Shown in pieces: positions 26,946-45,725 of a DNA stretch of 64,000 bases. The stretch lies in assembly GCF_009696605.1 (NCBI RefSeq), contig NZ_VULR01000005.1, positions 1 to 64,000 on the forward strand. The letters run 5' to 3'. Positions within the stretch are counted from its first letter, which is position 1; the number at the start of each line of letters is the position of its first letter. The translations under genes were made by a program, and so were the position numbers. Below the pieces are notes generated by a model that saw nothing but the letters and a program-made list of their open reading frames with translations, had not been told where the DNA came from and did no database searches. The stretch comes from Anaerosalibacter bizertensis. Its GTDB lineage: Bacteria; Bacillota; Clostridia; Tissierellales; Sporanaerobacteraceae.

Positions 26946-29705
26946 TTATTTATATTCTTCTGCTACTTCTCTTATAAATATTTCTAGTTCTTGAGTTTTT
27001 TCAACATTTTCTAAAAAAGAGTATTTTGCTTCTGTCAAAGTATCGCTTATTTCTTCTTTATCTATTATTCCACTAAATTCATACTCTTGTATCAATCCTT
27101 CTACTTGTTCTTCTGGAAGTCTATTCTTTACTGCAAAGTCATTTATGACTCTTTCTTTTCTTTCTATTTCAAACTCTGTAAATGCATTGTCTATAGAATC
27201 TTCACTGTCTAATTTTGGTACTACTTTATCTAAAAATTCTTTAATAAGTTCTACTTTATTTCTAAGTTCTATACTATCAGCTCTATCTAATTCTTTTATG
27301 ATATAGTTTATATCTTCTTTTCGTTTTTCTTCATTTTCCAAATCTATCTCTCTAATTAAATTCATAATATAATCTACATTTATCTTGTCTCTATGCATTA
27401 TTTCAAGAGCAAAATCTATATCATCAAGAATAGAAACTTTTTCTATTTTATTCTTATCGTGATTTTCTTTAATAAGTAGATACTTACTTCTATAATCTTG
27501 ATAATCTTGAATATCCATTCCTATTTTTTCTTCTGTGAATTCAAATTCATTAAAATTTTCCATTCTGATTAAAGTCTTAGTTAAGTCTCTAAAAACTACT
27601 ACAAACTCTTTTTGTTTTTCTTCACTTTCCATACTGTCTATACTTTCAGGTGTTGGAGCAATACTTAAAAGTGCATTTACTTGTTCTTTGAACAATGCTA
27701 AATACTCATCAAAAGACTTAGCTAAAACTGAATCTATATCATCAGTTTTTGAGAATGTTCTTAAAGCTTCATCTGTAGCTTCTTTTAAATTTCTAAAACA
27801 TACTATATTTCCATATGGTTTTTTATCAGAGTCAAGTCTATTAGTTCTTGAATATGCTTGAAGTAAATTGTGATATTTTAAGTTCTTATCTACATAAAGT
27901 GTATTTAGTTTTTTAGAGTCAAATCCCGTTAAAAACATATTTACAACTAAAAGTATATCTATCTTTGCTTCTCTTACTTTCTTGTCTACATCTGCTCTAT
28001 ATCCATCATAATTATCTGTAGAAAAATTAGTATTAAACATTTCATTATAATCATTAATCATTCTTTCTAAGCTATCTCTTCCATGAACTTTTCCTTCGCT
28101 TAAATCTGGATTTTCTTCATAGCTAAATATACTAGCTATTTTAAAATCATGGTCCAATTCTTTAAATTTATCATAATATTTTACTAAAGATTCTACACTG
28201 TCAGTTGCAAATATTGCATTATATCCCTTACTTCTTGATCTTTGATCATGGTATTGTATTATATGTCTTGCTACCAAATCTATTCTTTCCTCTGCTTGCC
28301 ACACTTCTTCTGTATTTATAGCTTGAACTTTTTCTGCAGCTATTTCATCTAATTTAGCTCCTAATGTATTTACATAGGTTACTGAAAAACCTAGAACATT
28401 TCCATCATGGATTGCATCTTTTATAAGGTAATAATGTAAACATTTATCAAATAGATCTGCTGTAGTTCTATCATCTTCTGATTTATTTTCTGGAAGTCTT
28501 GGAGTACCTGTAAATCCAAAATATTGGCTGTTTTGGAAATGCTCTTTTATAGCTGTATGCATCTTTCCAAATTGAGATCTATGACATTCATCTATTATGA
28601 ATATAACTTTTTTATTTCTATAGGGTTCCATGATATCTTTATACTTAGGGTTTTTAATGGCATTACTCATTTTCTGAATAGTAGTAACTATAATAGGATT
28701 CATAATGTCTTTTATTTGTTTTACTAGATTTTCTGTACTATCTGTTCTATCTACTGAACCTGGTTGAAAATCATTAAACTCTTTTTCTGTCTGATGGTCT
28801 AAATCTTGTCTATCTACTAAGAAAAATACCTTATCTATACTTTCTTCATTAGAAAGTATTTGACTTGCTTTAAAAGAAGTTAGTGTTTTACCTGACCCTG
28901 TTGTATGCCAAATATAACCGTTATTATTAGTTTCTAAAGCTCTTTTTACTATTTCTTCTACTGCATATACTTGATATGGTCTTAGTACTAGCAATTGTTT
29001 TTCTGTTTCTTTAAGTACCATATATCTTGCTATCATCTTAGATATATGACATTTTTCTAAAAACGTTGTGCTAAAATCTTTTAAATTTGTAATTCTATTG
29101 TTTTCTTTATCTGTCCAAAAGAAAGTATATTTATAATTTAAATTTCCATCAGAATTTGCAAAATACTTTGTATCCACACCATTTGATACTACAAATATTT
29201 GAATATATCTAAAAAGTCCTGTATATGACTGTACTTTATATCTGCAAATTTGATTAAATGCTTCTTTCATATCCAATCCTCTTCTTTTTAGTTCTATTTG
29301 AACTAATGGCAGGCCATTTATAAGTATTGTTACATCATATCTATTTTCATACTTTCCCCTTACTGTAACTTGATTTGTAACTTGAAATAAATTTTTGCAC
29401 CATTTTTGTGTATCCATTATAGTAAGGAAAAGTCTTTCACCATTCTCTCTTTCGATTTCAAGTTTATCTCTTAAAATCTTAGCTGATTCAAATACCCCCT
29501 TACCTTCAATCCTGTTCATAATTATTTGAAATTCTTTATCTGTAAGAGGTTTTCCTTTCAATTTATCTTCGTTAAATTTACTAATCTGTTTTCTAAAATT
29601 ATTCTTTAAATCTTCTTCACTATTTATATTAACTAATTCATAGCCATTTCTACTTAGTAACTTCAAAAGATTTTGTTCTAATACTGCTTCAGATTGATAT
29701 GACAA
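26946..29705 (-). CDS. hsdR: Type I restriction endonuclease subunit R
   Basis: Motor and nuclease subunit of about 920 residues. The N-terminal nuclease domain has a D...ExK site (YDVTILINGLPLVQIELKRRG). The SF2 translocase follows: Walker A TGSGKTLTS, DECH box (IDECHRSQFGKMH), motif III TGTPR, and motifs V-VI DILLVVNMFLTGFDSK with QAYSRTNR. A helical C-terminal domain binds HsdM/S. The frame opens at a GTG (29714) that falls within the ribosome site AGAAAGGGTGG; the TTG at 29705 (then SYQSEAVLEQ) is better spaced. Confidence 0.92.
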   Translation of the reverse strand: MSYQSEAVLEQNLLKLLSRNGYELVNINSEEDLKNNFRKQISKFNEDKLKGKPLTDKEFQIIMNRIEGKGVFESAKILRDKLEIERENGERLFLTIMDTQKWCKNLFQVTNQVTVRGKYENRYDVTILINGLPLVQIELKRRGLDMKEAFNQICRYKVQSYTGLFRYIQIFVVSNGVDTKYFANSDGNLNYKYTFFWTDKENNRITNLKDFSTTFLEKCHISKMIARYMVLKETEKQLLVLRPYQVYAVEEIVKRALETNNNGYIWHTTGSGKTLTSFKASQILSNEESIDKVFFLVDRQDLDHQTEKEFNDFQPGSVDRTDSTENLVKQIKDIMNPIIVTTIQKMSNAIKNPKYKDIMEPYRNKKVIFIIDECHRSQFGKMHTAIKEHFQNSQYFGFTGTPRLPENKSEDDRTTADLFDKCLHYYLIKDAIHDGNVLGFSVTYVNTLGAKLDEIAAEKVQAINTEEVWQAEERIDLVARHIIQYHDQRSRSKGYNAIFATDSVESLVKYYDKFKELDHDFKIASIFSYEENPDLSEGKVHGRDSLERMINDYNEMFNTNFSTDNYDGYRADVDKKVREAKIDILLVVNMFLTGFDSKKLNTLYVDKNLKYHNLLQAYSRTNRLDSDKKPYGNIVCFRNLKEATDEALRTFSKTDDIDSVLAKSFDEYLALFKEQVNALLSIAPTPESIDSMESEEKQKEFVVVFRDLTKTLIRMENFNEFEFTEEKIGMDIQDYQDYRSKYLLIKENHDKNKIEKVSILDDIDFALEIMHRDKINVDYIMNLIREIDLENEEKRKEDINYIIKELDRADSIELRNKVELIKEFLDKVVPKLDSEDSIDNAFTEFEIERKERVINDFAVKNRLPEEQVEGLIQEYEFSGIIDKEEISDTLTEAKYSFLENVEKTQELEIFIREVAEEYK

Positions 29706-29760
29706 TAGGACCACCCTTTCTCAAAATGTCTAAATAGATCATTACTACTTAAATATAGTT

Positions 29761-29826
29761 GTTATTTTGTATAATAACATAATACCATTTAAAATAATTT
29801 TGTCAATAGTTATTATTTATAATAAC
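29761..29826. promoter_or_regulatory. Two palindromic operator-like sites flanking the hsd promoter
   Basis: GTTATTAT-N2-ATAATAAC (29809-29826, perfect 8+2+8) lies just upstream of the -35 box. A degenerate copy, GTTATT-N6-AATAAC (29761-29778), lies just past the -10 box near the expected transcription start. This arrangement suits a dimeric repressor controlling restriction gene expression. No candidate repressor gene is adjacent. Confidence 0.6.
29779..29806 (-). promoter_or_regulatory. Promoter of the hsd operon
   Basis: Minus strand TTGACA (29801-29806), 16-nt spacer, TATTAT (29779-29784), about 75 nt upstream of hsdR. Palindromes abut both sides. Confidence 0.75.
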
Positions 29827-29832
29827 ATAAAA

Positions 29833-30199
29833 TCATTTTATAACAATATATAAATAAAATTTGGATACTTTTCTCATTGCAGGAATAAAGATATCGTTAT
29901 AGCCACCTGATTGTCTAAATGATTTCATAACTTCCATTAGTTTTTTATCTATAAAGAGTCCGCTCTCTTTAAATAAAGAAAAGTCACATTCTTTGTTGGA
30001 ACAATAAAAATTCTTCTTTCCTTCAAAAATGTGACTCTTACATATTGGATAATTCCCTAATACTTCTCTATTTGATTGAAATTTTTATTAAGACTAATTT
30101 TATACTCTTAAATCCTAGATTTATGACTTCCTTCCCTATATCTACTATTAGAGCTAATGTAGGTGTTTGAACTCTTCCTACACTTAAAGAAGTATTGAT
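29833..30199 (-). pseudogene. Remnant of DNA topoisomerase III (topB)
   Basis: Two broken frames. 30068-30199 reads LSVGRVQTPTLALIV, the signature that follows the active tyrosine region of type IA topoisomerases, then runs to a stop. After a frameshift, 29833-30084 reads a zinc-ribbon-like stretch, with cysteines in NYPICKSHIFEGKKNFYCSN and KECDFSLFKES, then a helical tail. This order and the Cys-rich end fit topoisomerase III, with the N-terminal two thirds and the middle lost. No start codon or ribosome site is left. It separates the type I operon from the MmeI-like gene. Confidence 0.68.
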
Positions 30200-32166
30200 T
30201 TAGTATAAAGTTTCATTAAATATTCAACACAATCTGATTCAGAATCTATATCCCATGATTTACCATAAGCCTCCCACACAGCTTTATCTAGTTCTTTATG
30301 GGCCTTTAACAAATCTCTAGGCATAAATAATGGATCATATAAGTCTGCATAACTCCAATCCTTATATTTTTGTCTTACTTTTAAAACCAACTCCGCTTTT
30401 TTAGAAACTATTATTTTAACTTTCTCATTTGTCTTAGACCATGGAAAATTATTATATACTATATTTTTAGAATATTTATAATCTCCTTTTAGTCTGCCTC
30501 CTACTACTCTCATCCATGCGTTATGAACATTGGAAGTTAATATTCCAAAATGATATATACTTGCATTAGGCATTATCAAAACAGCATCACTTGCTATACT
30601 ATTAGTTGACATAAATCCTATTGGAATATACTTTCTATTTTCTGATGTTACCCTAGGAATTAACAGATAATTGCTTTTGGAAATATTTGTCGTTTGAAAC
30701 TTAGTAGGTGTATTTGCTATTTTTAAAGTATTTTTTCTAGTACTCTTTAATCTAAATTCTCTAACATTCTTAACTCTTTCCATAACAAGAGACATAGTTC
30801 TTATTTTGCTTGGTTTTAAATCTCCTAAGTACAAGCAATATCTTGGATTGTTATTTATAAACTCCCTTGCACCATACCATTCCATGAAATACTTTTTAGA
30901 TTGAGGCTCCTCTTTTATAAACTTTTCCATTTCCTCTTTTGTAAATAAATAATTCCCATCATCTATTGGTTGATTACCCATACCTATTTCTTGAACATCA
31001 CATAATGGCTTTCTTCTAGACTCTATATAAACATTATCAGCATCTACTAAATAACCATTGATATTCTCAACTTCTTGAAACGTCCCTTCATTTTCATATA
31101 TTATCTTTTTATCAATTCTCTTATTCATACTAGAAAAACCTATTATAACACAATACACAGCTGCTTTATATTTTGCATCATTACTCCATTTAAATGTTCT
31201 ATAAGCAAAATCTATCTTGCAAAAATTGTCTTCTAATATATACTTCCACAAAATACTAACCTGTTCTCCTTGACATATGCTATTAGTAGAAACAAAAGCA
31301 ACCCTTAAATCTTTATTTCCTTTTATCATTTTTGCAGACTTAGCATACCAAGCTGAAACATAATCTAAGTTTCCTATGTTTTTTATACCGTTAAAGACAA
31401 GGTTTATATCAGAGTTTTGTTCACTATTCATTAATCTAGCACCCACAAATGGAGGATTTCCTATAATATAATCTAGTTCTTTAGCATCTATTAATTCATT
31501 CCAATCTATTCTTAGGGCATTAGTATTAATAATATTTGCATTTTCTCTTATTGGAAAATCTATTATATTAAAACCGAAATAATTACTAATTTTTTGATCC
31601 ATTAAATGCTTTATAAGTATCATGGATACTTTAGCTATCTCTACAGGAAATTCTTCGTACTCTATACCATAAAATTGATTTATATGTACTATATTTTTTG
31701 CTCCTATCATTTGAAGTTCTCTATGATCATAAATCATTTTCATAACTTCAAATTCTAATTCTCTTAACTTTTGATAAGCCATTATTAAAAAGTTTCCTGA
31801 ACCACAGGCAGGATCTAAAAACTTTAATAATGCTAATTTCCGTTGAAAATTCTTAAGTTCTTTAACCGTACTTTTGGATCTTTCAAATTCATCATATAAT
31901 TCATCTAAAAATAAAGGCTCTAATACCTTCATAATATTTTCTTCAGATGTGTAATGAGCTCCTAAATTCCTTCTCTGCTCTTGGTCCATAACTCCCTGGA
32001 ATATAGCACCAAATATAGCTGGATTTATTTCTGACCAATTAAACTTACAGCATTCTAATAAAAGATTTCTCATATTTTGATTAAATGAAGCTAATGGTAA
32101 ATCCTCTTTAAACAAATTACCATTTATATATCTAAATCTTTTTAATTCTGGGGATAAATTATTCAT
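30184..32166 (-). CDS. MmeI-like adenine DNA methyltransferase portion (gene broken)
   Basis: 660 residues homologous to the methylase and recognition part of MmeI-type single-chain restriction-modification enzymes: LGAHYTSEENIMKV, AdoMet motif FLDPACGSGNFLI, catalytic GNPPFVGARL, a long C-terminal recognition region and a final helical bundle. Intact relatives have about 900 residues with a nuclease domain in front; here that domain is in a different frame (32159-32473) and the linker between the two, about 150-200 residues, is missing. The frame is long and clean, so a solitary methylase could still be made. The 3' end abuts the topoisomerase remnant. Confidence 0.75.
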   Translation of the reverse strand: MNNLSPELKRFRYINGNLFKEDLPLASFNQNMRNLLLECCKFNWSEINPAIFGAIFQGVMDQEQRRNLGAHYTSEENIMKVLEPLFLDELYDEFERSKSTVKELKNFQRKLALLKFLDPACGSGNFLIMAYQKLRELEFEVMKMIYDHRELQMIGAKNIVHINQFYGIEYEEFPVEIAKVSMILIKHLMDQKISNYFGFNIIDFPIRENANIINTNALRIDWNELIDAKELDYIIGNPPFVGARLMNSEQNSDINLVFNGIKNIGNLDYVSAWYAKSAKMIKGNKDLRVAFVSTNSICQGEQVSILWKYILEDNFCKIDFAYRTFKWSNDAKYKAAVYCVIIGFSSMNKRIDKKIIYENEGTFQEVENINGYLVDADNVYIESRRKPLCDVQEIGMGNQPIDDGNYLFTKEEMEKFIKEEPQSKKYFMEWYGAREFINNNPRYCLYLGDLKPSKIRTMSLVMERVKNVREFRLKSTRKNTLKIANTPTKFQTTNISKSNYLLIPRVTSENRKYIPIGFMSTNSIASDAVLIMPNASIYHFGILTSNVHNAWMRVVGGRLKGDYKYSKNIVYNNFPWSKTNEKVKIIVSKKAELVLKVRQKYKDWSYADLYDPLFMPRDLLKAHKELDKAVWEAYGKSWDIDSESDCVEYLMKLYTKSILL

Positions 32167-34490: not shown

Positions 34491-35158
34491 CTAACTCATA
34501 GTTTCGTCTGAAGTCTTCGAAGGTTCAGCTTCATCTATAAGATTATAAAAATCTATCACTGGGTAATTATTTTTATCCTTAAGTATCTCTCTTATTTTAT
34601 TATAATGATAATTAGAATGCTCTAAAACCCTATATTTATATTTACTCCACTCTATTTCTAATTTTCTTATATCTTTAATACTTGATATACTATTTATACA
34701 TTTAATGGCTGAAAGATTCTTATCTTTAACTTCAAGCATAATATCTATTTCATCATCTAATTTATTACTGAAACTCGTAAATTCAGTTAAATCTATTGTC
34801 CTCGAATGAGAACCTGGTCTTTTTTCCAAGTTTTTTTACATTTATTTATAAAGTATAATTCGTCTTTAGATTTATCATAAGGTAATATCTTATTGTGGAG
34901 ATTATCAAATACTACTGGTATGTCTAATGTTTTTCCTATTTTTAGAACATCTCCAATATTGTAGGATTTGTCATCATTTTCAATAACCAGCCTATCCTTA
35001 ACTTTAGGAGAAAGGAGATTATAATTATGGATAAATCTATCTATAGCTTTTTCTTTATCACCATATACTCCTCCTATATGAAGGACTATCTTGCTATCCT
35101 TTAACAAAATGGAATTTTTGTGGAACATAGGAAATAGTAATCCCCTAACAAGCAACAA
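34491..35158 (-). pseudogene. uvsE: UV-damage endonuclease (UvsE), 5'-truncated and frameshifted
   Basis: Two overlapping frames together match the middle and end of UvsE: KIVLHIGGVYGDKEKAIDRF, LVIENDDKSY and VVFDNLHNKI in the first, then KRPGSHSRTIDL and IDIMLEVKDKN in the second. They join at the A-run near 34812-34820 (TWKK|RPGSHS), so a single-base change broke the gene. About 110 N-terminal residues are absent: the frame begins at a TTG inside the last codons of hypA. Not functional as a repair enzyme. Confidence 0.8.
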
Positions 35159-35486
35159 TCTCTTTGATTAAAAACTCCCTACCACAAAGTAATTCCCAAT
35201 CTTCGCTCCCGCAACTTGGACATTCTCCCTTATGTTCAATTAAATTAAATACCTTTTTACAATTATCACATATACAATTGCCTGGCAATATTTCAATTTC
35301 TAATTTCGTATTCTGTAGCATAGTTCCATCTACCGCAGCTGGATAACAGGCTTGGACAAATCTTGGTACAACTGAAGACAGTTCTCCAATTTGAAGTACT
35401 AATGTGTCAATTTCTGTGATTCCATTTTGTTTTGCAAAATTTTCAACTGTTTCTACAACATTAATCATAATTCCTAGCTCATGCAA
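35145..35486 (-). CDS. hypA: Nickel-insertion protein HypA
   Basis: A 113-residue metallochaperone that delivers nickel to hydrogenase or urease precursors with HypB. It begins with the Ni-binding MHELG (His2, Glu3) and has the structural zinc site, CDNCKKVFNLIEHKGECPSC. Length and both ends are complete (GREFLIKEIVAC). Third gene of an operon with hypB and a flavoprotein; no other hyp gene or hydrogenase is in the window, so the client enzyme is elsewhere or not a hydrogenase. Its last codons overlap the truncated uvsE. Confidence 0.92.
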   Translation of the reverse strand: MHELGIMINVVETVENFAKQNGITEIDTLVLQIGELSSVVPRFVQACYPAAVDGTMLQNTKLEIEILPGNCICDNCKKVFNLIEHKGECPSCGSEDWELLCGREFLIKEIVAC

Positions 35487-35560: not shown

Positions 35561-38254
35561 CTAACTTGATTTATCTTTTTTACCAGTAAAGGTTTTTTTG
35601 ATACTATGGGTTATCATTCTACCTTTACGTGCAATTACATTTTTAACGATTACTGGCTTTAAATCCTCAAATTCCACATTTTGAGCATCATATTTCCTTA
35701 CAAGAGATATAGCATCAAATTTACATTTAGTAGTACATTGTCCGCATCCTATGCACAGATACTCATCTACAACTGTAGCTCCGCAACTTAGACAACGTTC
35801 TGTTTCTTTTCTAACTTGATCCTTTGTAAGAGTTGGTCGTAAATCTTTAAAAGAGGTCTTAGCCTTATCACCGTCTACATGTGGTGTTCTTTGTCTTGGA
35901 AGACGGTCATAGCCTGCCAAGTCTATATTTTCCTTATCAAATGCCTTAAATTCTCTTCTATCTCTACCAAGTATTAAATCCTGTCCTGGTTGAACATAGC
36001 GATGGATCGAAATTGCTCCTTCCTTTCCTAAAGCTATAGCATCAATTGCAAATTTAGGTCCTGTAGCAACATCTCCACCTGCAAATATATCTGGTTCACC
36101 TGATTGTAATGTAAATGGATCTACTTTAATTGTATTGTTTGGATTTAATTCTACTTTTGAACCTTCTAATAGTCTACCCCAATCTATTGATTGGCCTATT
36201 GAAAGCAACACCTTATCTGCCTTAACAACTTTTGTATCATTTTCATCAAACTTAGGACTAAATCTTCCATCTTCATCAAAGACCGATAGACACTTTTTAA
36301 ATTCTATTCCTACAACATGTCCATTCTCTGTAACAATACGATTAGGACCCCAAGAATTATTTACACCTATGTCTTCAGACATTGCCTCTTCAATTTCTTC
36401 ATCAAGGGCTGGCATTTCTTCTCTGCTTTCCAAACAGTACATCTCAACTGTTGAAGCTCCCGCCCTTGTAGCTGTTCTTGCTACATCTATAGCAACGTTA
36501 CCGCCACCAATAACTACAATGTCTCCCTCCATGTCTACATCTTTACCTAAATTAACATCCAATAAGAAGTCCACCCCAGATATAACCCCTTCTGCCTCTT
36601 CTCCTTCAATGCCTAGTTTTCTACCAGATTGAGCACCAATTGCAAGATAAAATGCTTCATATCCCTGATTTCTTAGTTCATCAAGAGTAATATCTTTCCC
36701 TACTTCTATACCAGTTTTAAATTCTACTCCTAATTCCTTTAATATGTTAACTTCTGCATTTACTACATCTTTTTCTAACCTATATGAAGGAATTCCAAGG
36801 GTTAGCATACCACCAAGAGCCTCTTGTTTTTCAAATACTGTTACATTATAACCATCTATGGCTAAATAATATGCACAAGAAAGTCCAGAAGGTCCAGCAC
36901 CTACGATAGCAATTTTCTTTCCATAATTGTGCCTTTTCTTAGGTATATATCGCACATCTGCATTTAAATCTTGTTCTGCAATAAATTTTTTAATATCATC
37001 AATAGCTACAGGCTCGTCTACATCTCCTCTAGTACATACTGATTCACATTTTCTAGGGCAAATACGTCCACATACTGCTGGAAAAGGATTTTGTTTTTTG
37101 ATTAATTCCAATGCTTCTGTATATCTTCCTTGAGAAGCTAATTTAATATAACCTTGTACAGGAATATGGGCCGGACATTGGGTTATACAAGGGCTAGTTC
37201 CACTTTCTAAAACATTTTTTCTATTAATTCTATAATCTGGATTCCATTTATCTGGTCCCCATTTACTATTGGATGGTAAATCTATTCTTTCCTCAATAAC
37301 TTGTGCTTCTTCACATAATTTTTGACCTAATTGGAGTGCATTAACAGGACAAACCTGAACACATTCACCACAAGCTACACATTTATCCTTATCTACATGA
37401 GATACATAATTTGAACGTACCATATCATTGTTTAAAAACATTGTAGCAGTTCTTAAAGAGAAACAACTACAACTACAGCAATTGCAAATAGCATGGGTTT
37501 TTCCCGGCCCGTCTGTATTAGGAATTTGGTGCATTAAACCGTTTTCCTCAGCTTTCTTTATGATTTCAAAAGCTTCTTCCCTAGTTATCTGTCTGCCTCT
37601 ACCGGTTCGTATATAGTATTCAGCAGCATGATCTAATTGGATACACATATCTTCTTTTAAATGTCCACAGCCTTCTCCCATAATCTCTCTAGCTGTACGA
37701 CAAGAACAGTCTGAAACAGAGAAAACTTCAGCTTCATTTAGATATTTTGATATTTCCTCATAGGATGCCCTTCTACTTTCACCATCAATAGCCATTTCAA
37801 TAGGAATAACACGCATAAGACCTGTTCCTACTGGGAATATTCCTGCTGTTTGAGGGCCTCTTATCCTTCCGTAAGCCTCAAAAGCCTCAGCAATTTGAGG
37901 GTACTTCCTAACATTTTCCTTATTATTCACCATCATTTCCATAACCCCAGGTATCCAGGTTTCAAGCCAATATTTATCTACTCCATCTTTATCTCCAACA
38001 AAACAAGCACCTGCAACTGCTAATTCCCACAAAAGTTTTCCTGTTTCTTTTACAGGTTTTCCACATATTTTTGCCACTTCTTCTGCACTCTTAGGTTTCC
38101 TAAACTCCAAACAAAGTCCCACTTCTGCCATTTCATCTGTAACAACAGGTTCCAAAATCATATATTCAGGATCTGTATATTTATATGATGATTTAGAACC
38201 ATGTTTTTTACCGCCTATGTGATTAGCTAGTTGCAATACTTTTTCTTTTGTCAT
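35561..38254 (-). CDS. Large FAD/NAD(P) and Fe-S oxidoreductase (GltD-like)
   Basis: 897-residue multi-cofactor protein. Around residue 188 and 260 are unusual Cys clusters (SDCSCRTAREIMGEGCGH; CNCCSCSC). A ferredoxin motif CVACGECVQVCP lies near 295, then a GltD-type N-terminal Fe-S domain (CITQCPAH to CGRICPRKCESVC, about 356-400), an FAD-binding VGAGPSGLSCAYYL (about 450), an NAD(P)-binding VIGGGNVAIDVART (about 583), and a last ferredoxin-like motif CIGCGQCTTKC (about 836). It should move electrons between a pyridine nucleotide and low-potential Fe-S partners. Its place between hypB and hypA suggests a role in metal-centre maturation or reduction; that is inference. Confidence 0.8.
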   Translation of the reverse strand: MTKEKVLQLANHIGGKKHGSKSSYKYTDPEYMILEPVVTDEMAEVGLCLEFRKPKSAEEVAKICGKPVKETGKLLWELAVAGACFVGDKDGVDKYWLETWIPGVMEMMVNNKENVRKYPQIAEAFEAYGRIRGPQTAGIFPVGTGLMRVIPIEMAIDGESRRASYEEISKYLNEAEVFSVSDCSCRTAREIMGEGCGHLKEDMCIQLDHAAEYYIRTGRGRQITREEAFEIIKKAEENGLMHQIPNTDGPGKTHAICNCCSCSCFSLRTATMFLNNDMVRSNYVSHVDKDKCVACGECVQVCPVNALQLGQKLCEEAQVIEERIDLPSNSKWGPDKWNPDYRINRKNVLESGTSPCITQCPAHIPVQGYIKLASQGRYTEALELIKKQNPFPAVCGRICPRKCESVCTRGDVDEPVAIDDIKKFIAEQDLNADVRYIPKKRHNYGKKIAIVGAGPSGLSCAYYLAIDGYNVTVFEKQEALGGMLTLGIPSYRLEKDVVNAEVNILKELGVEFKTGIEVGKDITLDELRNQGYEAFYLAIGAQSGRKLGIEGEEAEGVISGVDFLLDVNLGKDVDMEGDIVVIGGGNVAIDVARTATRAGASTVEMYCLESREEMPALDEEIEEAMSEDIGVNNSWGPNRIVTENGHVVGIEFKKCLSVFDEDGRFSPKFDENDTKVVKADKVLLSIGQSIDWGRLLEGSKVELNPNNTIKVDPFTLQSGEPDIFAGGDVATGPKFAIDAIALGKEGAISIHRYVQPGQDLILGRDRREFKAFDKENIDLAGYDRLPRQRTPHVDGDKAKTSFKDLRPTLTKDQVRKETERCLSCGATVVDEYLCIGCGQCTTKCKFDAISLVRKYDAQNVEFEDLKPVIVKNVIARKGRMITHSIKKTFTGKKDKSS

Positions 38255-38283: not shown

Positions 38284-38955
38284 TCACTGTTCCTGCCACT
38301 TTTTTATTTCATCAAGAAGCCAATCCGCCCATTCATCAATGCCTTCCCCTGTTTTTGCAGAAATAGGGATAATTTTAATATTTGGATTTAGCTTTTTTGC
38401 CCTTTCTTTAACAGCTTCTAAATCGAAGTCAAAATAATCCATGGTATCAATTTTATTAATTAATAAAACATCTACCTTCGAAAACATTAGAGGATACTTC
38501 AAAGGTTTGTCATCTCCTTCTGGTACACTTAAAATCATAGCATTTTTAGATGCACCAGTATCAAATTCTGCTGGACACACTAGATTACCTACATTTTCTA
38601 AAATAATAAAATCTATATCATCTGCACCAAGTCCTAATAAACCTTGTTTTGTCATATCAGCATCTAAATGGCACATTCCACCGGTATGCAACTGAATAAC
38701 CTTTGTACCAGTTTTAGCAACTGCATGAGAATCCACATCAGAATCAATATCTGCCTCCATGACACCAATATTAATATCTGATTTTAAAGCTTCAATAGTT
38801 CTTAAAACTGTAGTTGTTTTACCTGAACCTGGTGATGACATGAGATTTAATAAAAAAGTTTTTCTCTTTTTCAATTCTTCTCTAAGCAAATCTGCTTGTC
38901 TGTTATTGTCTTTAAAAACGCTTTCCTTGATTTCTAAAACTTTAAAACTCTTCAT
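38284..38955 (-). CDS. hypB: Hydrogenase/urease nickel-incorporation GTPase HypB
   Basis: GTPase that drives nickel transfer together with HypA. The SIMIBI-class P-loop SSPGSGKTT lies near residue 41, followed by EADIDSDVDSH, the metal-site HTGGMCHLDADM, LENVGNLVCPAEFD and the base-recognition NKID. The 223-residue form lacks the His-rich and CxxCGC N-terminal extensions, so it is the minimal HypB without nickel storage. First gene of the hypB-oxidoreductase-hypA operon, behind promoter module A. Confidence 0.93.
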   Translation of the reverse strand: MKSFKVLEIKESVFKDNNRQADLLREELKKRKTFLLNLMSSPGSGKTTTVLRTIEALKSDINIGVMEADIDSDVDSHAVAKTGTKVIQLHTGGMCHLDADMTKQGLLGLGADDIDFIILENVGNLVCPAEFDTGASKNAMILSVPEGDDKPLKYPLMFSKVDVLLINKIDTMDYFDFDLEAVKERAKKLNPNIKIIPISAKTGEGIDEWADWLLDEIKKWQEQ

Positions 38956-39042
38956 ATTTTATTCCACCTTCCCATAAATTTTTATTTAACTTTGCATTTT
39001 ACAGGATATTTTGATGAAAATTGTTATTATTTTATCATTTTC

Positions 39043-39071
39043 ATTGTATGCAAAATAGAAATAGTTGTCAA
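39043..39071 (-). promoter_or_regulatory. Promoter of the hypB operon (module A)
   Basis: Minus strand TTGACA (39066-39071), 17-nt spacer, TACAAT (39043-39048), about 90 nt upstream of hypB. Confidence 0.8.
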
Positions 39072-39081
39072 AAAAAACAAA

Positions 39082-39217
39082 CGTTGAGATTTCAATGCTT
39101 ATCCACTTTATATTTTAAGTTCAGTTTACACTTATAGTAATGAAAAGACTCATATTTTAAAATTAAACTTGAACTTTTCTTAAATATATATGTAAACTTA
39201 ACTTGAATGTAAAAAAC
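39082..39217. promoter_or_regulatory. Upstream control region A, shared with the fmdE promoter
   Basis: Three blocks upstream of the -35 box: an imperfect palindrome CGTTGAGATTTCAATG (39082-39097); a 27-bp block 39105-39131 containing AAGTTCAGTTTACA; and a distal inverted counterpart TATATGTAAACTTAACTT (39187-39204) followed by GTAAAAAAC (39209-39217). The same blocks occur at 42997-43132 with identical spacing. The region has no open frame. Confidence 0.75.
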
Positions 39218-39300
39218 TTAAAAAAATATAGTTTTACAGATTAACTATATAACTATTATATATAGTCAATCTAATTTATATTTCCAAATAATGCTAATAT

Positions 39301-40428
39301 CTATAATCCTTCTTTCAAATTTATCTTAATATATCCACCATATTTTTCGGCCATTATGTTGTATAATGGTTTACCTAACATAAAAGTATATATCTCATCT
39401 GCTTTTTCTATGACATCAATATCTTTAAACTCATTAGGATATAAAGTCTTGCCTAGAAAATATATATCAGCCATAGCAGTCTCAATATTATTATAATATG
39501 AAACATATGGCAATTGACCATATACCTTGTCATTTTTTACAGCAGATAATTCATTATAATAATCTGGATTTTTATTATAATCTTCATTTACAATATTCAT
39601 TCCATTTTCATCAATTATAAGTATATCTGGATCCCATTCTATAAGTTGTTCCTTATCGATCATTATAGAACCAGATTTTCCTATTTCATCTGCAACATTT
39701 TTAGCACCAATGATATCCAATACTGGAGAATTTCCAGTTGTACTTTCAATTCCATGAACCCCTTTATAGCTTAATCCTCCCATGTATACACTTGGTTTTT
39801 TATCTTCTGGAATATCCTTTGTAAGATTGGTAAGTTCAGTCTTACAGTCCTCCATATATTCAATTAACTCCTTTGATCTTTCTTCCTTTCCAACTATTTT
39901 GCCAATAATAGTTAGTGCCTTATACATATCTTGATCAAAAACTGCTGAGGAACCACAATTTACAATTACAATTGGTACCCCTATTTTTTTCTGAAGCTCT
40001 TCTATTTGAGCTATATCTAAAATATCTCCAGCAATAATAACATCAGCATTTACATCTATAAGTAATTCTGGATCTGGGTTGGCTGGAAACCCTTCTCCTA
40101 TTATTGGAATCTTTTCTAATTCAGGATTAGCAATTATATATGGTCGTCCAGTTTCTTTAGACTGCTGCTTTCTTTCAACTCCTACAAGTTTTTCAGTTCC
40201 ATTGACATAAGTATAAAGCCTAAGGGCAGAACCTATTGCCACTACTCTTTCAACAGGTCTATCTAAAACAATGTTACGCCCTGCCATATCTGTTATTTCA
40301 ATAACATGGGAACTATCTTTAGTTTCATCCTCTTCTACTTTTGCTGATTGTTTAGATTGAGTACATCCAGTCAATATTGATAATAAAAACATCATTATTG
40401 CTAAAAATATACTTAATTTTTTCTTCAC
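39301..40428 (-). CDS. Metallophore-type ABC transporter substrate-binding lipoprotein
   Basis: Captures a metal complex outside the cell. The start is a GTG at 40428 (ribosome site AAGGGGAG), giving a signal ending in the lipobox LLSILTGC. The mature part is a two-lobe, helix-linked binding protein of the FecB/BtuF type: VIEITDMAGRNIVLDRPVERVVAIG, NADVIIAGD, IGAKNVAD, LIEWDPDILIIDE. Ligand could be an iron, cobalamin, nickel or molybdenum chelate. Last gene of the fmdE-permease-ATPase-binding protein operon. A 12- to 13-bp AT-rich hairpin (39239-39272) follows the stop. Confidence 0.88.
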   Translation of the reverse strand: MKKKLSIFLAIMMFLLSILTGCTQSKQSAKVEEDETKDSSHVIEITDMAGRNIVLDRPVERVVAIGSALRLYTYVNGTEKLVGVERKQQSKETGRPYIIANPELEKIPIIGEGFPANPDPELLIDVNADVIIAGDILDIAQIEELQKKIGVPIVIVNCGSSAVFDQDMYKALTIIGKIVGKEERSKELIEYMEDCKTELTNLTKDIPEDKKPSVYMGGLSYKGVHGIESTTGNSPVLDIIGAKNVADEIGKSGSIMIDKEQLIEWDPDILIIDENGMNIVNEDYNKNPDYYNELSAVKNDKVYGQLPYVSYYNNIETAMADIYFLGKTLYPNEFKDIDVIEKADEIYTFMLGKPLYNIMAEKYGGYIKINLKEGL

Positions 40429-40487
40429 TTTTTTATCTCCCCTTTCTTTATTCACCAATAAAAATTTTAATCTAATATTTAAATGAT

Positions 40488-41240
40488 TTATATAGGGATA
40501 ACTACTGGAATACCTGAAAATTCTTCTATTGCAACATCAATATCATATACATTTTTAATCAATTCTGAATTTAAAATTGTAGCATCACCAAAATCAAATA
40601 CTTCACCTTCTTTTAGCAGAAGAAATTTGTTAGCAAAACGTAATGCTAGATTCAAATCATGCATGGCAACTATTGCTGAAATCTTTCGTTCATTAACAAT
40701 ATACTTAATTGTCTTAAGCACTTCTATTTGATTTTTTAAATCAAGATTGCTAGTAGGCTCATCCATTAACAAAACCTTTGGTTCTTGAACAAGTGCCCTA
40801 GCTATAATGACTTTTTGAAGTTCACCACCGCTAAGTTCATTAGTATATCTCATAGAATAGTTTTCTAAATTTAACAATTTTAAAACATTTTCAACAATAT
40901 CAATATCTCTTTGAGTTACATCCCATTTTATATAAGGTTTTCTTCCAAGTAAGATAGAATCAAAAACTGTTTTTTTTGAACAATCATGGCTTTGTGGCAC
41001 ATATGCAATGTTCTTTGCAAGTTCTGGACCTTTTAATCTAGAACTATCGATGCCATTAATATATACAACACCTGATTGTGGTTTCAATATTTTGTTTAAA
41101 CATTTCAAAAGAGTAGATTTTCCAGCTCCATTAGTTCCTAAAACTGCTAGATAATCTCCTTGTTTTAGTGAAAATGCTATATTATTGATAACATCCTTTT
41201 TTGGATATGAAAAACTTATATTATTAACTAATAAGGTCAT
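40488..41240 (-). CDS. ABC transporter ATP-binding protein (FecE/BtuD type)
   Basis: ATPase subunit, 250 residues: Walker [13 protein letters not shown]-loop AYVPQSH, signature LSGGELQKVIIARAL, Walker B LLMDEPTSNLD and the switch His in AMHDLNLAL. It starts immediately after the permease stop codon (41241), so the two are coupled. Chelate-import family by closest motif pattern. Confidence 0.93.
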   Translation of the reverse strand: MTLLVNNISFSYPKKDVINNIAFSLKQGDYLAVLGTNGAGKSTLLKCLNKILKPQSGVVYINGIDSSRLKGPELAKNIAYVPQSHDCSKKTVFDSILLGRKPYIKWDVTQRDIDIVENVLKLLNLENYSMRYTNELSGGELQKVIIARALVQEPKVLLMDEPTSNLDLKNQIEVLKTIKYIVNERKISAIVAMHDLNLALRFANKFLLLKEGEVFDFGDATILNSELIKNVYDIDVAIEEFSGIPVVIPI

Positions 41241-42320
41241 CTATTCACTCTCCTTTATAAGAAAATAAATGAACAACGGTGCTCCAAGAAAAGATGTTAC
41301 AGCCCCTACTGGTAAAGTCTGCGGTGATAATACTACTCGTGCTAGTGTATCAGATATGAGTAATATAAGGGAACCCATGATTGCTGATGTAGGTATAAGG
41401 TATCTATTATCACTACCTACTAATCTCTTTGCTATTTGAGGAGATATTAAACCAATGAAACCTATTATTCCTAAAAAAGATACAATAACAGCAACAACAA
41501 TTGATGCCACAAACATTCCACTTAGTCTAACCCTCTCAACATTTACTCCTAGACTCTTTGCAGTATCATCTCCACTATCTAGAGCATTATAATCCCATCT
41601 ACGATATATAAAATAAACTATAGATGCCAAAATTAATATTCCCATCATTATAATTTCATCCCAAGATGCCCTACCTAAATCTCCAAAAGTCCAAAATATA
41701 ACAGCAGCTACTTTAGTTGTATCTTCTGAAAAATATTGAATAATCATAGTACCTGCTGAAAAAAGTGAACTTAATGCTACTCCCGCTAAGACTATGCTTT
41801 GTGTAGAAAAATATCCTAATTTTGATAAACTAATAATCAATAGTGTGGAACCTATTGAAAAAGCCATTGCACAAATTGTAACGATATAAGGATTTAAAAT
41901 TTGTATATCGCCTAATCCAGTATTTACTACATTACCTGCCCCTAACAAGATAATAGCAACATTGGCTCCAAAAGCAGCAGCATTTGATATTCCAAGTGTA
42001 GAAGGGGATGCTAATGGATTTTTTAAGTTATTCTGCATAATACATCCTGCTACTGATAACCCTGCACCTGCTAGTATTCCTGCTACTACCCTTGGCATAC
42101 GAATATTCATTACTGTAGAAATTGATTTAGTGTCTCCTAATCCTAAAATAGCTAAAACTACCTGTTTAGGCCCAATACTCATAGCACCAGCATTTATAGC
42201 CAAAAAAAATACAATAATAGTAGCAATCAGTAAAGCAATAATGATAAGCCTTTTCTTGATTATATGTTTTTTATATTCATCATATTGAAATAATAGCTCT
42301 TTATCTTTATTAATATCCAC
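41241..42320 (-). CDS. FecCD/BtuC-type ABC transporter permease
   Basis: 359 residues with about ten membrane helices. Family landmarks are RMPRVVAGILAGAGLSVAGCIMQ near residue 85 and GFIGLISPQIAKRLVGSDNRYLIPTSAIMG near the C-terminus (the ATPase-contact helix). The start is GTG at 42320, with the ribosome site inside the end of fmdE, 3 nt before. Imports the chelate delivered by the binding protein. Confidence 0.92.
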   Translation of the reverse strand: MDINKDKELLFQYDEYKKHIIKKRLIIIALLIATIIVFFLAINAGAMSIGPKQVVLAILGLGDTKSISTVMNIRMPRVVAGILAGAGLSVAGCIMQNNLKNPLASPSTLGISNAAAFGANVAIILLGAGNVVNTGLGDIQILNPYIVTICAMAFSIGSTLLIISLSKLGYFSTQSIVLAGVALSSLFSAGTMIIQYFSEDTTKVAAVIFWTFGDLGRASWDEIIMMGILILASIVYFIYRRWDYNALDSGDDTAKSLGVNVERVRLSGMFVASIVVAVIVSFLGIIGFIGLISPQIAKRLVGSDNRYLIPTSAIMGSLILLISDTLARVVLSPQTLPVGAVTSFLGAPLFIYFLIKESE

Positions 42321-42323
42321 AGA

Positions 42324-42848
42324 TTACCACCCTCTTGAATATTCATTAAAACAGTCTAGACAAACTTTCTTACCTCCCTGAATTCGAATTTTATTCTCAG
42401 AAGCCATTTCGTTGCATTTTTCACAAGCTATGGTATCAAATATTCTTGCTTTCTCTGGCAATTCAATATTAACCTCTTCAACTTTAAATATATTTTCTTC
42501 TGGACCTTCTAAAATATATTGTTGTCTTTTTTCCCTTTCCATTTCTCTATCATTTTGTTTTAATATTAATCTAATACTTCTTCCATCTTTTCGTCTTATA
42601 AAGGTAAAAGCCATCTTTCCTGTATCTTTGAAAATTAGATTACCTTTTCCTAGTGTACAACTAGTTATGACTTGGATTGCATCTACACCACATGCATCAT
42701 TTTCTGTTATACAAACTATTTCCTCATCTCTAGAAAAACTTAATGACATTTTCTCTTTTGCTATTTCGGCTGCCCTAAATCCAATAGCTAAACCAGGGCA
42801 TTCATGTCCATGAAATTCAACACATTTTTTCCATAATTCCTTATCCAT
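42324..42848 (-). CDS. FmdE-family metal-binding protein
   Basis: 174 residues related to subunit E of molybdenum formylmethanofuran dehydrogenase, a family widespread in bacteria without that enzyme. It shows FHGHECPGLAIGFRAA and ENDACGVDAIQVITSCTLGKGN with conserved His and Cys, and a C-terminal zinc ribbon (CEKCNEMASENKIR ... CLDCF). Family members often sit beside metal-chelate ABC importers, as here, where it is the first gene of the operon. A role as an intracellular metal acceptor or sensor is plausible but unproven. Confidence 0.85.
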   Translation of the reverse strand: MDKELWKKCVEFHGHECPGLAIGFRAAEIAKEKMSLSFSRDEEIVCITENDACGVDAIQVITSCTLGKGNLIFKDTGKMAFTFIRRKDGRSIRLILKQNDREMEREKRQQYILEGPEENIFKVEEVNIELPEKARIFDTIACEKCNEMASENKIRIQGGKKVCLDCFNEYSRGW

Positions 42849-42957
42849 TTTCGCTCCCCCTTTAATATTAATTTTAAACCAATAATTCTAAACCTAAAAT
42901 ACCTTAATTACCATAAATGTTCACTTTATTCAAATATTACAAAACATTTTAATTAAA

Positions 42958-42986
42958 ATTTTATATAAATTTAAAATGTATGTCAA
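42958..42986 (-). promoter_or_regulatory. Promoter of the fmdE-ABC operon (module B)
   Basis: Minus strand TTGACA (42981-42986), 17-nt spacer, TAAAAT (42958-42963), about 110 nt upstream of fmdE. Confidence 0.8.
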
Positions 42987-42996
42987 AAAACAAGGA

Positions 42997-43132
42997 TGTT
43001 GAAATTTCAACGTTCATTAACTTTATATTTTAAGTTAAGTTTACACCTATGATAGAAATGAATGGCATATTTAACATTCATTCCAAAGGTTTTTATAGCA
43101 CTATATGTAAACTTCACTTAAAAGTAAAAAAC
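42997..43132. promoter_or_regulatory. Upstream control region B, shared with the hypB promoter
   Basis: Contains the perfect palindrome GTTGAAATTTCAAC (42998-43011), a 27-bp block 43020-43046 with AAGTTAAGTTTACA that differs from module A at one position, and a distal inverted counterpart TATATGTAAACTTCACTT (43102-43119), then GTAAAAAAC. Distances from the -35 box are the same as in module A (34 and 116 nt); only the 55 bp between the inverted elements is not conserved. Confidence 0.75.
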
Positions 43133-43245: not shown

Positions 43246-44499
43246 TTAAAAGAATCTATCTATCAGATTTTCTGAATATCGAATACAATTTTCAATTGAA
43301 AGCATACTCATGATTTCCCCTGCTAAAAATATATTGTTTTTACCCTGAATAGATTCCATTTTATCATAAAATCCATTTTCTAATGTATGAGTATCTACAT
43401 AGGGACAATGTTTCCAACACTTAGTCTGATAAAGTCTTGCATTTTTTACTCCTAACCTTGATAAATCATCCTTAATATAATCTAAGGATGATTTCTTAGA
43501 ATTAAAAGGAGGATTGTATGCATAAAGTATCACCATTTCCTCATCATTAGACACATCCCATCTAGAATCCCATATAGTAATATGTCCACGTCTACTAGGG
43601 GATAAGTTTTCCAATATACAACCACATCCTTCTGGAACCTTGTCTACAATGAAGGCATATACATTAAAAATTTGATATTTTATATTACTTAAACATTTCT
43701 TTGTATCCTCGTCCCAAAGATTTAGATGTGAAAATTGTTCCAGTGGAACAGTAATAATAACTTTATCAAACTCAAGTCTTTCAAATTGAGTTTCTAGCCA
43801 TATGGTTCCTTTTGAGGATAAGGAAATGTCTATTACCTTTTGTCCTAATCTAATATATTTAATTTTCCTACTCAAGTGTTCTGCCAATATAGAAACCCCA
43901 TCGTTCCATGTGTAAAACTCTGGAATCTTCATAAAAGACATTAGATGATCATAATTCATAATTCTGAGTACATAAAGAGCGGGAACTTCTTCAATATTGC
44001 CTAAACCAAAGATAGTGAAGTAGTGTACATAAATAGTTTTTAAAACTTTAAATTTATGCATATCACACCACTTTGAAAAGGGTAACATCAATGGTTTTTC
44101 TGTATTTTTAGCACTAATATTTTTCAATGATTTGTACTTATCCAGTACTAGGGGCAATCTTTCTAACTCCTCAATAAATCCTTCTAAATCTTCTTTAGGT
44201 AATGGCATAATTTTTTGACCATCTGCATTATAATTAGTCCGTGATAGTTTAGGACCATCTGCTTTTATATTTAATCTTTTCATCAATAATTTAAGATTTA
44301 AATAAGAAGGTAGTCCAAAAATTGCACCTAATTCATAAGACTTCTCATTGTAACAGATAGTATGTAGCTTACCACCTAGACGTTCTTCTTTTTCAAAAAC
44401 GGTAGTATTTTCATATCCCCTTCTGTATAAGCCTTCAGCTATAACCAAACCAGAAAGCCCTCCACCTATAACTGCAATCCTACAGTCTCTCTTATTCAT
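43246..44499 (-). CDS. FAD-dependent amine-oxidase/protoporphyrinogen-oxidase-like protein
   Basis: 417 residues with the FAD-binding VIGGGLSGLVIAEGLYRRG at the N-terminus, an FEKEERLGGKLHT second FAD strand, and a C-terminal IFLAGEIMSMLSIENCIRYSE that closes the flavin site. These are the landmarks of the flavin amine oxidase family. The substrate is unknown, and no haem or carotenoid genes are nearby. It starts 10 nt after the transposase-like gene, with GAGGTGG as ribosome site, so the two are co-transcribed. Confidence 0.78.
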   Translation of the reverse strand: MNKRDCRIAVIGGGLSGLVIAEGLYRRGYENTTVFEKEERLGGKLHTICYNEKSYELGAIFGLPSYLNLKLLMKRLNIKADGPKLSRTNYNADGQKIMPLPKEDLEGFIEELERLPLVLDKYKSLKNISAKNTEKPLMLPFSKWCDMHKFKVLKTIYVHYFTIFGLGNIEEVPALYVLRIMNYDHLMSFMKIPEFYTWNDGVSILAEHLSRKIKYIRLGQKVIDISLSSKGTIWLETQFERLEFDKVIITVPLEQFSHLNLWDEDTKKCLSNIKYQIFNVYAFIVDKVPEGCGCILENLSPSRRGHITIWDSRWDVSNDEEMVILYAYNPPFNSKKSSLDYIKDDLSRLGVKNARLYQTKCWKHCPYVDTHTLENGFYDKMESIQGKNNIFLAGEIMSMLSIENCIRYSENLIDRFF

Positions 44500-44509
44500 C
44501 TATACCACC

Positions 44510-45556
44510 TCATTTTGAATAATTAATCAGTGCTAAAAGCCAAAGTGGTAATGTATCTAAATCAGCGCCATTTTCTATTGCCCTTTCTAAAACAACTTCA
44601 GCAGGTGTTTTTCCTGCTTTAGGTCCATTAGGAATTATACTGTGAAAATTATATTTCCTTATAAAATCATTAATGGCAGCTTCAACTTTTACAAAAGAGT
44701 CTAATTTGTCATTTAAAGGAATTTTATTGTAAAACTCCATCATTAAAAACTCATTAAACTCTCTCATACCATCTAATATATCAATATATTCAGGAGAAAT
44801 AAATATATGATTAATATTAAAATCTTCTAAGATCTCTTTATATTTATTACCTTTCACAAAGTAAGGTAAAAACTCTCTTTCCTTTTCAGTAACTAAATTT
44901 TCAATATTTAAACTAAAAGTTTCCAATAGATAAATTAACTTGCGTTCAAAATAATGCCAAATATCAATATCCTGCTTCTTATTGTATATTTTTACCTCTC
45001 CCCATCTTGAAACAGTGTCATAAAAACTATATTGATATATCCTACCTATTCCCTCAAAAGTGCCTATAAAATCAATTCTCTGAATTACTAAATAGCCTGG
45101 ATAAGAATCCTTTGCATTTGAAAAAATAGACATATCCTTTTTATCCCTTTTCTTGATATTTATATGTGATTTTTCATCCATAGAATATTCTATTCTCTGG
45201 GCTTTTCTTGTTAAATTATATCGTTTAAGCACATTATAAATTCCTGTTTCTCCTATATCAAATCCTTGGGATATTAATTCATAGTAAATCCTCTTAGGCC
45301 CATCTGCTGGATATTTTGTAACATATGATAATATTTCTTGTTCAATATCTTTACTGACTTTATTTGGCATTTTAGGCTTTCTGCGTTCTCTATTATCCAA
45401 TCCAGCCATTCCATGTTTCTCATAAGCATTTTTCCAATTATAAAATGTTGTTCTTGATATTCCAAACAATTCACATGTTTGAGAAACGTTATTCCCTTTC
45501 AAAGCATGTTGTAATATCTTATATTTAGTATATGCATTAAACCCCTTAGATCTCAT
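44510..45556 (-). CDS. IS481/IS3-like transposase-derived protein, probably domesticated
   Basis: 348 residues. Residues 1-120 have two helix-turn-helix units (NNVSQTCELFGISRTTFYNW; then DGPKRIYYELISQGFDIGETG). From about 155 an integrase-like fold follows: strand with Asp162 (VIQRIDFIG), SFYDTVSRWGEVKI, then ISPEYIDILDGMREFNEFL with Glu266. The second catalytic acid, normally in a TDNGSEF motif, is replaced by TEKEREF (Glu224). There are no terminal inverted repeats around the gene, and it is coupled to a metabolic gene. These points suggest a regulatory or structural role rather than transposition. Confidence 0.72.
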   Translation of the reverse strand: MRSKGFNAYTKYKILQHALKGNNVSQTCELFGISRTTFYNWKNAYEKHGMAGLDNRERRKPKMPNKVSKDIEQEILSYVTKYPADGPKRIYYELISQGFDIGETGIYNVLKRYNLTRKAQRIEYSMDEKSHINIKKRDKKDMSIFSNAKDSYPGYLVIQRIDFIGTFEGIGRIYQYSFYDTVSRWGEVKIYNKKQDIDIWHYFERKLIYLLETFSLNIENLVTEKEREFLPYFVKGNKYKEILEDFNINHIFISPEYIDILDGMREFNEFLMMEFYNKIPLNDKLDSFVKVEAAINDFIRKYNFHSIIPNGPKAGKTPAEVVLERAIENGADLDTLPLWLLALINYSK

Positions 45557-45725
45557 AATAGCCCCCCTTTATTTAAAAGGAAACTTATCAGTTGTTTTAA
45601 CTTCAAATATATGTTTACATAATAATATCATATAACCCTTTATAAAAAAAGTAGAACAAATATTTATAATATTTTTAAAGATAATTAGATCTTTTTATAC
45701 TATGAAATAATAATTAAAATCATAT

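Follow-up and report, generated by a model that had tools for sequence, protein, structure and literature searches.

Two operons in a 64,000-nucleotide stretch of the Anaerosalibacter bizertensis genome (contig NZ_VULR01000005.1, positions 1 to 64,000; hereafter the window) carry the same paired operator upstream of their promoters. One operon begins with fmdE and encodes an ATP-binding cassette (ABC) importer, and the other encodes HypB, an oxidoreductase resembling the putative isoprene reductase IsrA, and HypA. The likely regulator is a transposase-like gene two genes upstream of fmdE, which a first-pass annotation of the same letters had missed. Its product, here called TnpL, is quite probably a domesticated IS481-type DDE transposase that serves as the dedicated regulator of the paired operators, with AmOx, a flavin adenine dinucleotide (FAD) protein, as its partner. 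This assignment rests on sequence comparison and a predicted fold.

A paired operator at the hypB and fmdE promoters

A gap-free alignment of the upstream regions of hypB (start 38955) and fmdE (start 42848), both on the minus strand, was anchored at the -35 boxes. In both, an inverted half-site is followed by ~60 bp, a second half-site, 8 nt, a palindrome, 11 nt, and a TTGACA-17-TAnAAT promoter (Table 1). The half-site is 26 bp long (TGTAAACnnAACTTGAAnGTAAAA) and occurs in two inverted copies per promoter, about 34-60 and 120-146 nt upstream of the -35 box. The promoters and palindromes are found where the first-pass annotation had placed them, and the alignment reproduces its 27-bp block with 26 identical positions. 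The distal inverted block and GTTTTTTAC that it described also stand at equal offsets in both promoters. Because the half-site spans 26 bp, the distal block and GTAAAAAAC make up one half-site, which is an inverted copy of the proximal block. The DNA between the blocks is of equal length, as had been claimed (60 bp tip to tip in both elements), but it was wrongly called not conserved: the spacers are weakly conserved, with 52% identity overall and 48% in the inner 48 bp.

The hypB element is 4 kb away from the fmdE element, and no sequence of the window other than these four half-sites scores above 12 bits with a weight matrix. The arrangement is more than chance would give. Among 100 genomes, the paired-block pattern matches in the A. 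bizertensis genome and one congener only, and the reversed control gives no match; this genome holds two intact copies of the element and one decayed copy. In relatives, the element also lies upstream of fmdE and hypB orthologues. A small shared regulon of transporter and HypAB genes is therefore well founded, since one operator type is conserved before both sets of orthologues.

TnpL and its co-occurrence with the operator

The tnpL gene is annotated as 'IS481 transposase' and shares an operon with amOx. The NCBIfam model transpos_IS481 matches residues 11-321 of TnpL (E 1.9e-38, 132.6 bits, below the cut-off of 224); Pfam matches HTH_28, HTH_29 and HTH_32 and gives no rve match. When TnpLs are aligned with an IS481-type transposase that retains the triad, every TnpL has R, N, S, A or G in place of the first D and E, K or N in place of the second, and the third position is mostly not E. 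One TnpL keeps the acidic E at the third position yet lacks both D residues. The ratio of nonsynonymous to synonymous substitution rates (dN/dS) is 0.08-0.16 for pairs with finite dS. The predicted structure, with a predicted local distance difference test score (pLDDT) of 82.8, is best matched by IstA, the transposase of a CRISPR-associated transposon (CAST), retroviral integrases, and Mu transposase. Global template-modelling scores (TM-scores) of these matches are low, which we attribute to differing domain orientations. A Foldseek search against viral structures returns retroviral integrases and transposases only.

The tnpL and amOx genes adjoin in 39 of 40 loci, and the remaining locus is at a contig edge. 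The distance correlation is 0.95 for TnpL and AmOx and 0.85 for TnpL and IsrA. TnpL thus bears the marks of domestication, namely lost catalytic residues together with purifying selection, and stable linkage to a non-transposon gene.

IS481-type elements end in TG..CA, and in several families in TGT...ACA (PMC10045372); the half-sites likewise have TGT...ACA ends. No paired half-sites are found flanking tnpL, so we reject the idea that they are the ends of its own transposon. An active IS481-family transposon is rejected as well, because the catalytic DDE triad is absent and terminal inverted repeats were not found around the gene. A single half-site-like sequence (TGTAAACATATATTTGAAGTTAAAAC) lies upstream of tnpL in this genus only, and may point to autoregulation. 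Upstream of tnpL in the other loci, no half-site exceeds 10 bits.

An element model made from sequence alone, using ten copies, finds a strong element in 17 of the 249 genomes of the order and in one more genome among 391 searched in the class. TnpL orthologues, sought with a TnpL alignment, occur in these 17 genomes and in no other of the 249, full-length in all except G006, where a contig edge cuts the gene. Weak hits in G003, G126, and G044 are kept apart from the strong set; those in G126 and G044 are discarded for their unrelated gene contexts. An IsrA-like oxidoreductase is encoded in 26 genomes, 17 of which carry both TnpL and the element, and nine neither a full-length TnpL nor a strong element. 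Among these IsrA-positive genomes, the association of element and TnpL has a Fisher p of 3e-7, a value to be read with the linkage of the features and the non-independence of related genomes in mind. Of the nine, G060 has part of a TnpL at the end of a contig. Another, G003, encodes a TnpL-AmOx pair of 34% identity, with its own element before an amine-oxidase-like gene.

A scan of 84,980 species genomes yields the 40 TnpL loci, which belong to Tissierella, Anaerosalibacter, Clostridium, Alkaliphilus, Anaeromonas, Fusibacter, a Halanaerobiales metagenome-assembled genome, and ~16 Paenibacillus relatives with TnpLs of 34-43% identity. In Paenibacillus, a DUF5692 gene usually follows AmOx, without HypB, IsrA, or metal genes. 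The same half-sites lie between AmOx and DUF5692, with the palindrome recognisable in most. The DUF5692 gene encodes a membrane protein of unknown function; it recurs beside the locus (L161, L164, L182-L198) and is the apparent operator target in Paenibacillus. An iterative matrix detects half-site pairs in 44 regions, the proximal site of L192 being weak. Half-sites are 67% identical within an element, compared with 65% when shuffled between elements and 27% by chance. A matrix derived from 15 Paenibacillus elements places three of the window half-sites among its strongest matches and scores the one at 39105 lower. Where the palindrome is clear, it starts 33-35 nt past the proximal tip and keeps its GTTGA-N4-TCAAC symmetry from Tissierella to Paenibacillus. 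The tip-to-tip spacing is mostly 59-65 bp, with further classes at 48-50, 81-87, 106, 134-148, and ~204 bp. It is fixed only among near relatives, and helical phasing is unsupported (p 0.95, collapsed spacing classes).

The element of Fusibacter bizertensis stands before hypB-isrA-hypA at a distance of 5.4 kb upstream of tnpL-amOx, and its half-sites are spaced by 60 bp. Clostridium sp. CF012 has a second element, which lies before hypB and 12 kb away from its first. In these two cases and in the hypB copy of the window, the element tracks the target promoter, which argues for action in trans and not for a mere feature of the AmOx terminator. Contig 15 of this genome (G000, L027:311-2026) carries a decayed paralogous pair, with tnpL and amOx both broken by internal deletions. 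The pair is followed by a paired operator with an altered half-site core, GGG/CCC, and then by an intact gene for a 523-aa flavoenzyme, suggesting that the module once had other flavoenzyme targets.

Proposed mechanism and alternatives

We propose that TnpL keeps the tandem helix-turn-helix domains of a transposase and the binding to 26-bp transposon-end-like sequences, the DDE residues having been lost. Each half-site would be bound through the two helix-turn-helix regions. A TnpL multimer would hold the two inverted half-sites together, as a transposase pairs transposon ends, and a short DNA loop would form upstream of the sigma-70-type promoter. AmOx is probably the sensor or a partner. The regulon in A. 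bizertensis would consist of the fmdE-ABC importer and hypB-(IsrA-like)-hypA. A protein complex bridging the two blocks had been suggested from their fixed spacing. The inverted arrangement of the half-sites makes such a bridge plausible; the fixed spacing does not hold beyond near relatives. With spacings mostly of 59-65 bp, other classes present, and no phasing, a rigid loop is not required. Activation is slightly favoured over repression, because the half-sites lie on the upstream side of the promoter, where activator sites are more common. By eye, the Paenibacillus promoters look weaker. We advance more tentatively that the dead DDE transposase and the flavoprotein form a redox- or ligand-gated switch, in which an inactive transpososome-like complex would synapse the operators and the state of AmOx would set the expression of fmdE, hypB, and isrA, or of DUF5692.

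Several observations weigh against regulation by TnpL as set out here. The co-occurrence is partly linkage, because element, TnpL, and AmOx are mostly adjacent. The spread of the spacing and its lack of phase weaken a rigid-loop model. No living transposon with such half-site ends is found. The palindrome may be bound by a second regulator encoded elsewhere, or may be a part of the operator or a structural feature.

A conventional metal-responsive repressor encoded elsewhere (NikR-, Fur-, MntR-, or ModE-like) might bind the blocks. Both window operons are metal-related by family, and Fur or NikR sites near isrA are proposed by the authors of the Acetobacterium isr study (PMC10134865). However, NikR_C is absent from this genome and has a match in only one of the 30 TnpL-carrying genomes tested, so NikR, the only one of these regulators to be searched for individually, is rejected as the regulator, in agreement with the first-pass annotation. 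Moreover, the Paenibacillus operator usually stands before DUF5692, where metal genes are absent, and across the 26 genomes the element tracks TnpL rather than the IsrA gene. We consider such a repressor unlikely. The earlier proposal of a shared metal and HypAB regulon holds in part: the same operator before orthologous fmdE and hypB supports common control, but given the DUF5692 targets and the flavoenzyme gene behind the paralogous operator, metal sensing is not supported. It is equally improbable that the AT-rich palindrome beside the -35 box is the switch of another regulator and that TnpL, bound to the half-sites, is merely architectural. The near-constant distance and conserved symmetry of the palindrome fit such a switch, but the palindrome is degraded while the half-sites are intact in L166, L172, L179, L190, L193, and L198, and the loci have no conserved second regulator gene.

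The resemblance of the half-sites to transposon ends, and the transposase-type gene nearby, could also mean that the inverted blocks were left behind by an inserted mobile element (transposon ends, or a miniature inverted-repeat transposable element) and have no present role. This is very unlikely, because neutral relics would decay and scatter, whereas the distances of both half-sites to promoter and palindrome stay fixed in different genera and families and in two classes, and ahead of a variety of target genes; the low copy number in this genome also speaks against it. Slighter still is the chance that the blocks, being inverted complements able to pair, form the stem of a transcribed structured RNA (riboswitch or attenuator): they lie upstream of conserved -35 and -10 boxes, and the loop would range from 48 to ~204 nt with no conserved core, although no search aimed at RNA families was made. 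An invertible promoter was dropped by argument, since the inverted pair does not enclose the promoter and TnpL is catalytically dead.

Putatively controlled genes and relation to known systems

Table 1. Operator features and genes of the TnpL-AmOx locus and its putative targets (window positions)
Feature	Position	Strand	Remarks
hypB promoter	39043..39071	-	TTGACA 39066-39071, 17 nt, TACAAT 39043-39048
fmdE promoter	42958..42986	-	TTGACA 42981-42986, 17 nt, TAAAAT 42958-42963
hypB operator, palindrome	39083..39096	.	ATTGAAATCTCAAC
fmdE operator, palindrome	42998..43011	.	GTTGAAATTTCAAC
hypB operator, proximal half-site	39105..39130	-	TGTAAACTGAACTTAAAATATAAAGT
hypB operator, distal half-site	39191..39216	+	TGTAAACTTAACTTGAATGTAAAAAA
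fmdE operator, proximal half-site	43020..43045	-	TGTAAACTTAACTTAAAATATAAAGT
fmdE operator, distal half-site	43106..43131	+	TGTAAACTTCACTTAAAAGTAAAAAA
Single half-site-like sequence upstream of tnpL	45594..45619	-	TGTAAACATATATTTGAAGTTAAAAC
TnpL, transposase-like protein	44510..45556	-	348 aa; N-terminal helix-turn-helix domains, degenerate integrase-like core; candidate regulator
AmOx, FAD amine-oxidase-superfamily protein	43246..44499	-	417 aa; Pfam Amino_oxidase; co-operonic with tnpL; candidate sensor or partner
fmdE, first gene of transporter operon	42324..42848	-	FmdE domain and C4 zinc finger; Pfam FmdE 1.2e-38
FecCD-type ABC permease	41241..42320	-	
ABC ATPase	40488..41240	-	
ABC substrate-binding protein	39301..40458	-	Peripla_BP_2
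hypB	38284..38955	-	TIGR00073 252.8 bits, cut-off 121.2
IsrA-like FAD/Fe-S oxidoreductase	35561..38254	-	897 aa; like the putative isoprene reductase operon in domain order, length, and HypA/HypB neighbours (PMC10134865)
hypA	35145..35486	-	Pfam HypA 4e-31

In the isr operon of Acetobacterium wieringae, the 901-aa IsrA is proposed to reduce isoprene, and its neighbours often include HypA, HypB, and DUF5692 (PMC10134865). The window operon has the same plan, a ~900-aa oxidoreductase with FAD, nicotinamide adenine dinucleotide (NAD), and 4Fe-4S domains beside hypA and hypB, and is likened to VUZ27132.1 by description. It differs by its single hypA, the lack of an extra ferredoxin gene, the addition of an fmdE-ABC importer, and putative TnpL-AmOx control; the text of the isr study makes no mention of a transposase (PMC10134865). 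The simplest joint reading is that fmdE-ABC and hypB-(IsrA-like)-hypA would form one module supplying a metal, probably nickel, to an IsrA-type enzyme. A second IsrA-like oxidoreductase, 56% identical to the first, is encoded on contig 42 of this genome (G000, 29210-31819, plus strand), where the element model gives no strong element. Genes for an S-component-like protein of energy-coupling factor (ECF) transporters and for a methyltransferase recur downstream of hypA (L101, L100, L090-L092) and are possibly further module members. At window positions 34491-35158 on the minus strand, two short overlapping open reading frames, one with a partial UvdE domain, resemble a UV-endonuclease gene that has been split or truncated.

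The domestication of transposases as transcription factors is already known in eukaryotes, and in bacteria via TnpB. In the open-access literature, we find no description of a bacterial regulator that derives from an inactivated DDE transposase, IS481-derived or other, and recognises transposon-end-like operators. If our proposal is true, TnpL represents a family of bacterial transcription factors that derive from an entire DDE transposase. Genes of this kind are annotated as mobile elements and discarded, so that such a family, present in both Clostridia and Paenibacillus, may have escaped notice. It would also make two unknowns accessible to regulatory tests: the oxidoreductases of IsrA type that are associated with HypAB, and the DUF5692 membrane proteins.

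TldR, a nuclease-dead TnpB (PMC13418256), is likewise a bacterial transposon protein that has lost catalysis, keeps DNA targeting, is associated with non-transposon genes, and acts in transcription. However, TldR is RNA-guided, whereas TnpL is of DDE/IS481 type, with putative targets that resemble fixed transposon-end sequences and predicted helix-turn-helix recognition. FHY3/FAR1 and other eukaryotic transcription factors (PMC13306707) are also DDE transposases domesticated as sequence-specific factors; their origin is Mutator-like, and nothing implies for them a paired transposon-end operator or a flavoprotein partner. Transposases of IS481/IS3/IS21 type, such as IstA, share with TnpL the domain plan, the predicted fold, a paired-end recognition of inverted terminal repeats that is proposed for TnpL, and TGT...ACA-type ends. 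In contrast to them, TnpL has no catalytic triad, usually occurs in a single copy, is firmly tied to AmOx, and has putative target sites that do not flank its own gene. The arrangement of two operator sites upstream of one promoter, bridgeable by one protein complex, recalls AraC- and lac-type looping, but the candidate protein is unrelated and the half-sites are 26 bp long and transposon-end-like.

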